A DNA stretch of 64,000 bases, from the NCBI GenBank assembly GCA_029717555.1, contig JAMDHS010000094.1, positions 1-64,000 on the forward strand. Reading direction: 5' to 3'. The position numbers and the translations under genes were made by a program. The DNA comes from Peribolospora baueri. Taxonomy: Eukaryota; Basidiomycota; Peribolosporomycetes; Peribolosporales; Peribolosporaceae. The notes below the pieces were generated by a model that was given only the letters and a program-made list of their open reading frames with translations, made no database searches and had not been told where the DNA came from. The first letter of the stretch is position 1, and the number at the start of each line of letters is the position of its first letter. Positions 4,690-8,712 of this stretch are shown here, piece by piece.

Positions 4690-5793
4690 TCAAATCCTCT
4701 TGGCAACCTCAATGGCCACCTTACAGCCCGCTCCGATAACGGCGCTAAGGAGCGCGTGAGCGGGCGCCTGCTGGGCGTGATTTTCGACGGCTGTGTCGAG
4801 ATGCTCCAACTCGTCATCGCGAAACTCGGTGATGATTTGAGAGAGGAGCGTGAGCGAGGCATGGATGCGTGTATGTGAGGTTGACGGGGCCGATTCAAGG
4901 TCGGCGAACGATGCCGTGGATGTGGACGATGACGGCGAGGGTGGATGAGAGGGTGGATGAGAGGTTGCAAGATATTTAAGTTGGCTGCGAGAGTGGCGTT
5001 GGGACGACAGAATGAGTTAAAGCCGGGTTTACACAGACCGCCGTCGCGACGGCAAGATTAACATCCGTCGACAGTGCCACTTGTCGTCGGAGCTGAAAGG
5101 TCGCACGACTGCATCTTCCCTTGACCTACTCACTCATCATAATGCTCCCCGATCACAGTTTCTACCGCCTCCGTACAGGCCATAGCTGCCTCCCTCCCCA
5201 TGAGCGCAGTGCCGGCACCGACAGCGAAGCCAGCAGCTTGCCAGAGCGGGTGGAGAAGGGAGGGGCGGACGCGATGCTGGGTCACGAGGGCGTCCATCAC
5301 GCGGAGGTGTTTCCGCTCATTCTCCCACATTTCCTGTTCATCCATAGAACAGCCGTCCAGGATGAGCAACCCCTTCTCAGAGCAATGTCTCTCCCCTGAC
5401 CCCAATACGATGAAATCTTGCCTGCCCTCCACTCACCTCGATCAATTGAGCCAGCTCCCGATCCTTCCCCCTATTGAAAACAGCTGCTTGCCCACGATAA
5501 ATCCAATTGGCGCCCACCTCTCCAGCCTGGTCTACTCGGATGATGCTCTCCAGTTTCTGGCGTTGCTCCGGGGTCAGGTGCGGGGCGGTTGCGGTGGTAG
5601 CTGCAGAGGACGAATGCGGGTCAGAATGGGGGTTGGTGTAGGCGTCTGATGCGAGGTGTCGGTTCTGGTAAGCAAAATCGGTGGCAGTGACTGCGAAGCG
5701 CGGTCGGCCGATTGTGCGCAAAAAGAGAGGAGTGACTCCCGGTGCTGAGTGAGGTATTGCCGAGTACAAAAACGATCCCATGTTCTGTGGCAT
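4690..5793 (-). CDS. COQ7: COQ7 5-demethoxyubiquinone hydroxylase, in frame behind MTO1
   Basis: Di-iron monooxygenase of the inner mitochondrial membrane that makes the penultimate ubiquinone intermediate. The family ligand motifs are present: IRVDQAGEVGANWIYRGQ, ENERKHLRVMDAL (E-x-x-H), AMACTEAVETVIGEHY and FRDDELEHLDTAVE. The end GAGCKVAIEVAKRI precedes TGA at 4690-4692. Three coding exons: about 5440..5793, about 5140..5410 and 4690..about 4990; the last join gives GEHYDDQLKYLA. A Ser/Pro/His-rich stretch of about 40 residues sits between QLKYLA and the last helices, where the family has a short loop. Candidate own starts are ATGs at 5793 and 5781, followed by an Arg/Ser-containing leader that could target mitochondria. 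However, the frame is open upstream into MTO1, so this may be the C-terminal half of one fused protein. Confidence 0.92.
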
Positions 5794-5937
5794 TCGGGGC
5801 GGAGGATGGCCTTCGTGGAATTCGAGGCGAGGCACTCTTGTCGGACCCACGGTAGTGTATGTTCGGTGCTGTTCAGCCACAGCGGGACGCAACACCTCGG
5901 GGAGACTCTTCAATCTTCGCCTTCCTGAAGGCTGGTC

Positions 5938-8712
5938 ATCTCTGCGCTGCACGAAATGGAAAAGCGCCATGACCGAGGCGGGTGTGATGCCTTCCATGCG
6001 CTTGACGGCACCCAGCGACCTCGGCTTGAGCTGGTTTAGACGCTCCTTCCACTCCAAGCTGAGGCCGTGGACTTGCTTGTAATCGAGGGAGGCAGGAAGG
6101 AGCAGGTCCTCGTCCTTGAGGAAGCTGCGGACGTCCGCAGCTTGACGAACTAGATGAGGGCGGTAGCGGCCTGTCGGTGCGCACCAGGTGTACATGGGAG
6201 CAGCGAAGAAAAAGGCAGCGTGAGAGATGTATGCTCAGCCTCTGATACGCTTGCTTGACGTGCGCAGTATACACTCACCTTCTACGTCCAGACGCTCCAT
6301 AATGTCCTCATCGAGCTCTGACAGCTCAGGCACGACTTGTGCGAGAGCAGACAGCGTGATTTCCGGGAACCGGAGCAGGTCCAGTGCTCTACATTGAAGG
6401 GAGAAACAGAAGTGACAGCGGGAGAGCGTCAACCCCTCTGTCGTCCTAATCGTCTGTGCGCGCACACTCACGATCGGAGTTGAGCATCCCTCTTGACTCT
6501 GAAGCCCAACCTCTCCCAGCCATGCGGGCTCTCCACTTTCTTCTGCAGCGCCTGAAGACCCTGCTCGAGCTGGTTCTGCGTGTCAGAGAAGACAGCCCAG
6601 CGGGACTCGTCGATGGCGCCCACTTGGTGAGCGAGCGGCGTCAGTCGCAAGTCGGCATTGTCGGCGCGCAAGGTCATACGGTATTCCGAACGGGAGGTGA
6701 ACATCCGATCTGCCATATATGAGGATGCAAACGGAACCGCCCAAATGTGAGATGTCGCCGTTTGTTTGGCTTCATATAAATGTCCTATCACCGGATCGTG
6801 CTCACAAGGTTCCTCGACCCCTCTCATCACGAGGTCGTCCACCATGACGCCCACAAAACCATCCGCTCTGCCCAATACCAAGGGATCTTTCCCCAGCGCC
6901 GCTAGACCGGCGTTCAGACCCGCAATAGCGCCCTGAGCCGCCGCCTCCTCGTATCCCGTAGTACCGGTGATCTGACCGCTCATAAACAGGCCCTTGATGC
7001 GCTTGGTCTCGAGCGTGTGCTTTAGCTCGCGGGGATCCACATGGTCGTACTCCACGCCATAGCCAGGCCGCACCATTTCCACCTTTTCCAAACCAGGCAC
7101 GGTGCGCAGCATCTCTAGCTGAACCTCCGGCGGAAGTGTGACAGAGAGCCCGTTAGGATAGATGAGGTCGGTATCATAGCCCTCCGGCTCAAGCCAGACG
7201 ATGTGGGCCTCTTTCTCCTTGAAACGGACCACTTTGCTCTCGATGGACGGACAGTACCGCGGTCCTTTGACCGTCTCGCGAATGTGCATCGTCTTGTCAA
7301 GATTGGACAGGATTAGGGCGTGAGTGGCTGAGGTAGTCCGGGTCTGGTAGCATGGGATTTGGTCGGCCTATGATTGACAACGAAAGAATGCCATATTCAG
7401 AATTTGGTCGTACGAATGGGTGTGCGTGTCGTAACTCGAACTCACTCCTCTAACTCGGAAACCTAAGCTGGTCTTTAAAAAGCTGAAACCCCTCGGGTCT
7501 TCATCACCGTCCATCCTCTGGAGGGGAACGCCACTGCGCTCCCCCGCGTAGTCGATCGAGTCCTTTTGCAACCGCGGCGGCGTACCCGTCTTAAGCCTGC
7601 CGAGCTCGAATCCGGCGTTGCGGAGCGTGGTGGACAGTCCAGCGGGGGATGATCGGTCTTGCAGCCGCCCCCACGAGGGAAGGACGTCCAAACCTATATG
7701 GAGCTCTCCGCCGAGAAATGTGCCGGTTGCGAGAATGACTTGGGAACACGGAATCATGTCGCCAGATTCTGCAACGGCATCGACCGAAAGTCAGTAAGAT
7801 CTAGCGCCACGCATGCACATCCACTCTTCCATATACCGGCCGGGCAAGGCCACTCACCAAGTTTGACGCCCTCCACCTCGGCCCAGACGCCGCTATTCAA
7901 ATGTCCGGTGACATTGCCTTCGCCAGTAGAGAGAAATGCCAAGTCGTGCACGCTGCCCTCGCGCACCTCCAAATTAGGGTGGGCCTTAGGACCGAGGACA
8001 AGTTGCTGCATCGCCTGACGGTACAGCTTGCGATCCATCTGCGCCCTGGGGCCATGAACGGCTGGGCCTTTGGAGCGGTTGAGCATGCGAAATTGAATCG
8101 CCGCTTCATCTGTTTCCGGAAAAGGCAGTCACGAAAAGCGAGGTCTGAGAACACCGGGGTGTCGTCCATAGAAACGACCGCCGCTTCCTGATGGCCGCGG
8201 CCAGCCCACTCACCGGCGACCCTGCCCATCAACCCTCCCAAGGCATCCACCTCCCTGACCAGCGTTCCCTTTCCAATCCCTCCAATCGAAGGATTGCAGC
8301 TCATCTCTCCGATGGTGTCTTTGCGCTGCGTGAGCAAGAGCGTCTTTGCGCCCACTCGCGCAGAAGCCGAGGCGGCTTCGAGCCCGGCGTGGCCGGCGCC
8401 GATGACAACCTGGTGCGGCAGTCACGCCATGCGGTCGTGTGAGGCGTTGATTTGAAAAAAGAGCGGGACTAGAACGTCGGTGCGTACGATAAGCTATCGA
8501 ACACTCACTGTGTCATACTCTCCCTCTTTTAAAGGCCTCCTCCTTCCTCCAGCCGGCACCTTCGCAGCAGGGGTGGGGGCGGAATGGCGAGCGTAACACC
8601 GCCAGCTGAGGTATACCGGTACGGTGCCTATCCCCGCAAACGGCTTACGTCCAAACCCCAGCCGTCTGGCGCGGAGAATGGAGTGCCCGACTGGTGCTGA
8701 AGAAAATGGCAT
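5938..8712 (-). CDS. MTO1: MTO1/GidA mitochondrial tRNA-modifying FAD protein, no stop before COQ7
   Basis: With MSS1/MnmE this enzyme installs the carboxymethylaminomethyl group on wobble uridine of mitochondrial tRNAs. The start is ATG at 8710-8712, followed by an Arg-rich presequence with few acids. Family blocks in order: YDTVVIGAGHAGLEAA (FAD-binding GxGxxG), DTIGEMSCNPSIGGIGKG, LNRSKGPAVHGPRAQMDR, VILATGTFLGGELHIG, LGRLKTGTPPRL, GPRYCPSIESKV, GLFMSGQITGTTGYEEAAAQ, EEPYRMFTSRSEYRM (made by a splice near 6715/6805), DNADLRLTP, and the C-terminal LDYKQVHGLSLEWKERL and LKPRSLGAVKRMEGITP ending near HFVQRR. The last exon then continues without a stop for about 50 codons into the COQ7 leader. 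At least six introns. The distance to CWF19 upstream is only 225 bp. Confidence 0.93.

Follow-up and report, generated by a model that had tools for sequence, protein, structure and literature searches.

Internal cleavage of a tandem mitochondrial precursor by the matrix processing peptidase (MPP) is established for S. cerevisiae Arg5,6, and S. pombe Rsm22-Cox11 and Etp1, together with Atp25, have been proposed from sequence to be tandem precursors as well (PMC8847149). We analysed a 64-kb window (the whole stretch of DNA presented here), which is part of contig C172 in an assembly of 22.1 Mb and 178 contigs. Within it, two mitochondrial proteins, an MTO1-type protein and COQ7, lie in one continuous genomic frame, which is one of the marks by which a tandem precursor is recognised. 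We favour, with moderate confidence, the reading that this locus encodes a single MTO1-COQ7 mitochondrial tandem precursor that is cut internally by MPP, where we infer the mRNA, the import and the cleavage.

The open reading frame runs on the minus strand from an ATG at 8712, whose start context stands at the 72nd percentile among 60 predicted starts, to a TGA at 4692-4690. It contains neither stop nor frameshift and gives a product of 1037 aa if the junction between the two halves is intron-free. The exon borders were chosen from landmarks and homology (Table 1), and the donors of all nine defined introns are GTGAGT (eight) or GTGAGC (one). A minus-strand frame is uninterrupted from 6234 to 5377, with the exon part spanning 6170-5437 (the acceptor ends at 6171 and a GTGAGT donor lies at 5436). 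This upholds an earlier sequence-only reading, in which the MTO1 end (HFVQRR), the COQ7 leader and its first catalytic block were said to share one frame. By exon-wise searches MTO1 and COQ7 each occur once in the assembly, where no second copy of the junction DNA was found either. Upstream, the CwfJ-like gene ends 225 bp before the MTO1 start; tandem spacing is tight here. The intron 6710-6805 within MTO1 is itself stop-free and in frame, and splicing it out restores EEPYRMFTSR, a match to bacterial MnmG; an open frame alone therefore cannot rule out an intron in this genome.

Table 1. Features of the MTO1-COQ7 locus, in minus-strand order after the upstream neighbour, followed by other features of the window.
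Feature	Positions	Strand	Basis
CwfJ/CWF19-like C-terminus	8938-9465	-	PF04676
MTO1 exon 1, with ATG, N-terminal leader and GTGAGT donor	8509-8712	-	landmarks, homology
MTO1 exon 2, FAD-binding VVIGAGHAG	8214-8409	-	landmarks, Pfam
MTO1 exon 3	7858-8109	-	landmarks, Pfam
MTO1 exon 4	7446-7768	-	landmarks, Pfam
MTO1 exon 5	6806-7367	-	landmarks, homology, Pfam
MTO1 intron, in-frame, stop-free, 96 nt, GTGAGC	6710-6805	-	homology to MnmG
MTO1 exon 6	6472-6709	-	homology, Pfam
MTO1 exon 7	6279-6388	-	landmarks, Pfam
Shared exon: MTO1 end (to 5941), linker 5940-5662, COQ7 homology start	5437-6170	-	frame, Pfam, homologues
Junction/linker, 93 codons, 12 R+K, 7 D+E, RTYTT, in-frame ATGs 5793 and 5781	5662-5940	-	
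Possible in-frame intron, 186 nt, GTGGGT/CTTACCAG; removal would give a 975-aa fusion	5665-5850	-	candidate
Possible terminal MTO1 intron, 250 nt; removal would give TGA 5576-5574, 743 aa	5601-5850	-	candidate
COQ7 exon 2	5134-5333	-	landmarks, alignment to 7ssp
COQ7 last exon and stop codon	4690-4984	-	landmarks, alignment to 7ssp
PRMT5 arginine methyltransferase exon	22148-23773	-	
tRNA gene	40614-40692	+	Rfam 48.8 bits
PQ-loop repeat protein	57760-59631	-	

Pfam resolves the 1037-aa product into GIDA (residues 67-485), GIDA_C_1st (547-638), SAM_GIDA_C (644-698) and COQ7 (834-1034). The three MTO1/MnmG (GidA) domains all score above their cut-offs (PF01134, 482 bits; PF21680, 63.1; PF13932, 67.9), and the MTO1 part aligns at 553 bits, over residues 4-640 of a 643-residue query, with the solved MnmG 9hip, which we take to be the E. 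coli protein. The COQ7 part matches PF03232 at 227.6 bits, covering profile positions 2-169 of 169, and aligns in two blocks (155.5 bits) with the solved COQ7 7ssp, presumably the human enzyme. Its motifs DQAGE, ENERKH, CTEAVE and DDELEH line up with DHAGE, DQEKDH, CTVAVE and DEELEH of 7ssp. The E and ExxH motifs of this family are those that supply the metal ligands. Both identities given in the sequence-only reading are thus confirmed. Among the matches listed, the best identity to any homologue is about 60%, and stand-alone proteins measure about 630-755 aa for MTO1 and 199-304 aa for COQ7. In trees of COQ7 and MTO1, which were built from selected rows (43 of 153 COQ7-containing and 29 of 120 MTO1 proteins) with classes assigned from organism names or, for two unnamed COQ6-COQ7 rows, from the domains, the query falls inside Basidiomycota with no class supported. 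The end branch of the query is long for MTO1 (1.08 against a median of 0.31), which may evolve faster here, and ordinary for COQ7 (0.29 against 0.19).

MTO1 homology stops at HFVQRR (5958-5941). Beyond this point the 120 best of 7998 MTO1 homologues scored have 0-50 aa, whereas here, without an intron, the frame continues for 93 codons to RHLASDAYT and on into COQ7. Homology to stand-alone COQ7 begins at RHLASDAYT, from 5661 (the COQ7 core follows from 5580), and a COQ7 leader counted from the ATG at 5793 or 5781 is therefore of the usual length. A motif related to LASDAYT is present in 83 of the 108 listed COQ7 homologues whose leader is 45 aa or longer, and LAS.AY in 43 of 120 listed. The pattern R.[YF][STA][STA] occurs in 21 of 108 stand-alone COQ7 leaders and in none of the bodies.

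By content scores, which were trained on contig C97 alone, the linker frame outscores the two other frames and the junction reaches the 93rd percentile of stop-free non-coding windows. Against C97 coding windows the junction stands at the 2nd percentile of 553 and the COQ7 leader lies below all 556. The MTO1 leader exon scores lower still (-0.159 per codon, as against -0.052 for the COQ7 leader); a low linker score is therefore no argument for the intron 5850-5665, and codon and oligomer scores were rejected as proof for or against a coding linker. A home-made presequence classifier (161 positives and 644 negatives, with a cross-validated AUC of 0.987 that is flattering since the positives are interrelated) peaks at residues 712-741 (2.22) and 774-803 (1.77), while the MTO1 body reaches 1.64; the linker scores 2.47 if 5850-5665 is removed. 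Among 39 natural MTO1 tails the scores range from -1.5 to 3.16 and seven exceed the 2.22 of the linker, for which reason the classifier was not accepted as specific evidence. Judged from its residues, the linker resembles a presequence, though not specifically so.

No MTO1-COQ7 protein was found among 5.8 billion proteins by a word-based search, which reaches only relatives sharing exact five-residue words. This agrees with the sequence-only reading, to which no such fusion was known, and none of the open-licence papers found, as judged by titles and abstract openings, deals with an MTO1-COQ7, GidA-COQ7 or fungal COQ7 fusion or with fused COQ7 or MTO1 in Basidiomycota. When COQ7 domains were sought inside proteins of about 570-1815 aa, 33 matches were obtained. 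None of them joins COQ7 to a GidA domain; 25 (P0002, P0005-P0028) join it to the COQ6 FAD-binding domain (PF01494). Fourteen of these 25 are named, all of them from smut fungi and kin, some under the name 'related to Ubiquinone biosynthesis protein COQ6 and COQ7', and 11 are without a name. The COQ6-COQ7 fusions of smuts, for which we found no description in the open-licence literature, where the search led instead to a Fusarium hydroxylase, merit experimental study themselves. In the rows examined, COQ7 is C-terminal and follows a basic, presequence-like linker. The motif [LP][AP]S[DES][AV]YT is present in at least 17 of the 25 linkers (some stretches ended short of its place) and R.[YF][STA][STA] in 17, with sites of the form R.[YF]S[ST] in many; the counterparts at the MTO1-COQ7 junction are LASDAYT and RTYTT. 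The other eight long matches (with G-patch/RRM or TFIIE domains, for example) look in our judgement like merged gene models and were dismissed as precedents. The MTO1-COQ7 and COQ6-COQ7 fusions look independent, because the COQ6-type matches in this assembly lie on contig C97 (found exon by exon, the best exon at 102 bits, below the whole-protein cut-off) and because the query falls outside the Ustilaginomycotina/Exobasidiomycetes clade (100/97) of the COQ7 tree.

An open link alone is unremarkable, since 38% of 49-codon windows in the predicted non-coding sequence of C97 are stop-free in a given frame. By our own rough estimate, close neighbours would be linked by chance in the same frame and without a stop about 13% of the time (38% times one third), a figure that genes missed in this "non-coding" sequence would inflate. 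Taken by itself, such a link is weak evidence; the lack of any other sound MTO1 stop, except via the donor at 5850, is stronger. What also counts is that two separate genes would lie unusually close, nearer than any predicted tandem pair (gaps below). Intron, spacing and content statistics, the sole use made of it, came from a simple self-trained gene finder run on 200 kb of C97 and 70 kb of C172, with this locus included in the intron set. It merges neighbours: here it ran the CwfJ-like gene into MTO1, and it also moved one of the MTO1 splice sites. Its 384 introns measure 61-276 nt (median 100; minimum allowed 30).

The best donor at the junction, GTGGGT at 5850, stands at the 10th percentile, and this hexamer is used by 12 of the 384 introns; no other donor there exceeds the 2.1st percentile. 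From 5850, splicing to 5784 or 5664 stays in frame and keeps the fusion, whereas splicing to 5600 shifts the frame and ends MTO1 at 5576-5574 with the tail RTYTT-LPPQPPRT. To stop upstream of 5776, MTO1 would have to use a donor no better than the 2.1st percentile. The best of 73 upstream-stop introns of at least 61 nt reaches the 4th joint percentile and would remove conserved MTO1 sequence, and among the candidate introns across the junction no sound splice sites give MTO1 a stop ahead of the COQ7 ATGs. A mini-intron at 5952-5925 (28 nt), with a stop soon after HF, was rejected: no predicted intron is shorter than 61 nt, and the donor of this candidate, GTGCAG, ranks at the 0.3rd percentile. 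We also abandoned the COQ7 profile (107 homologues) as a means of choosing among 90 in-frame candidate introns, since their range of 337.7-356.2, as against 355.7 without an intron, leaves no choice.

The main rival to a fusion is the route through intron 5850-5601. MTO1 would then end at 743 aa and COQ7 would be a second, overlapping gene on the same strand, with its own mRNA from the ATG at 5793 or 5781 inside that intron, an arrangement that we think somewhat unlikely. The sequence-only reading found no plausible intron leading to an MTO1 stop, and supposed that a separate COQ7 starting at either ATG would leave MTO1 stopless. This is not confirmed: 5850-5601 has fair GT-AG sites and would supply the TGA at 5576-5574. 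Its donor and acceptor together stand at the 45th joint percentile of the predicted introns, and of 402 control points placed in 35 long exons only 4 had sites as good. The MTO1 tail, 38 codons from QRR to the stop, fits the span of 0-50 aa seen among the 120 homologues listed, and the COQ7 leader would be of ordinary length, the two start contexts being at the 28th and 45th percentiles. Weaker introns (5850-5691, 5850-5646, 5850-5745 and 5835-5601) reach the same TGA, the acceptors 5691, 5646 and 5745 giving MTO1 tails of 53-86 codons. It tells against two genes, on the other hand, that only 3 of the 384 introns are of 240 nt or more, and with length included this 250-nt intron falls to the 1.3rd percentile, which 37% of control points match. 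The COQ7 promoter would also have to sit in MTO1 coding sequence, and the same frame across the junction would be chance. Both outcomes could be combined in a splice switch at the weak donor 5850, which would yield the precursor when unspliced or joined to 5664 and MTO1 alone when joined to 5600. We consider such a switch improbable; if it were true, the ratio of a tRNA-modifying enzyme to a coenzyme Q enzyme would be set by the splicing of a shared gene.

It is also quite unlikely, in our view, that a sequencing or assembly error removed a stop or frameshift from ordinary tandem genes about 100-150 bp apart. An out-of-frame TGA at 5912 does lie at the place of a normal MTO1 end, and no second copy or haplotype turned up for comparison, but the 3.1 kb of coding sequence shows no other frameshift and separate MTO1 and COQ7 genes would be closer than all 31 predicted tandem gaps (299-5212 bp, the minimum being biased upward by the merging of close neighbours in the gene finder). 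The sequence-only reading had raised a bifunctional fusion linking tRNA wobble modification to ubiquinone synthesis. Its fusion part stands as the best reading, with two mitochondrial enzymes in one frame and intact domains, but the wobble/ubiquinone link requires no functional coupling, and a permanently linked enzyme that couples the two processes appears very improbable. The linker retains the COQ7 motif LASDAYT, the linkers of the COQ6-COQ7 proteins stay presequence-like, and we are aware of no pathway step connecting the activities of MTO1 and COQ7. Since the junction resembles a retained presequence, the enzymes are more likely separated after import.

For the tandem precursor, the locus offers an open frame, intact domains, single copies and a conserved motif. 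In the course of events that we propose, the MTO1 stop and most of the spacer between MTO1 and COQ7, its neighbour downstream, would have been lost, and both enzymes would be translated as a single chain of 1037 aa, or of 975 aa with the in-frame intron 5850-5665 spliced. The MTO1 presequence would bring this chain into the mitochondrial matrix, the usual workplace of both enzymes, while the linker would retain the old presequence of COQ7 and the conserved LASDAYT start of the mature protein. MPP would probably cut at the linker, to give MTO1 of about 88 kDa or less and COQ7 of about 26 kDa. COQ7 could presumably ride behind another matrix protein because its presequence would still work internally. 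Should the fusion be real, other mitochondrial enzymes have taken up COQ7 as a C-terminal passenger on at least two occasions in basidiomycetes. The locus would then be a natural test of whether internal presequences allow the free joining of mitochondrial precursors, and a case in which fusion means shared import and not shared function.

With stand-alone fungal MTO1 and COQ7 the locus has in common its domains, the order of its motifs and the LAS.AY end of the COQ7 leader, and it differs in that those are separate proteins whereas here there is one frame. The COQ6-COQ7 proteins of smuts likewise carry COQ7, in the rows examined, at the C-terminus of another mitochondrial flavoprotein, after a basic linker that holds LASDAYT and sites of the R.[YF]S[ST] type; their partner COQ6 acts in the same pathway as COQ7, whereas here the partner is MTO1 and the COQ6-type matches lie elsewhere. 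Arg5,6-type precursors likewise have two mitochondrial proteins in one reading frame, and a targeting-like stretch separates the two (PMC8847149). They involve other enzymes, and MTO1-COQ7 differs in being known from its genomic frame, with a targeting-like linker score that is not specific. On this comparison, MTO1-COQ7 is a probable addition to the known tandem mitochondrial precursors and no new type of system.
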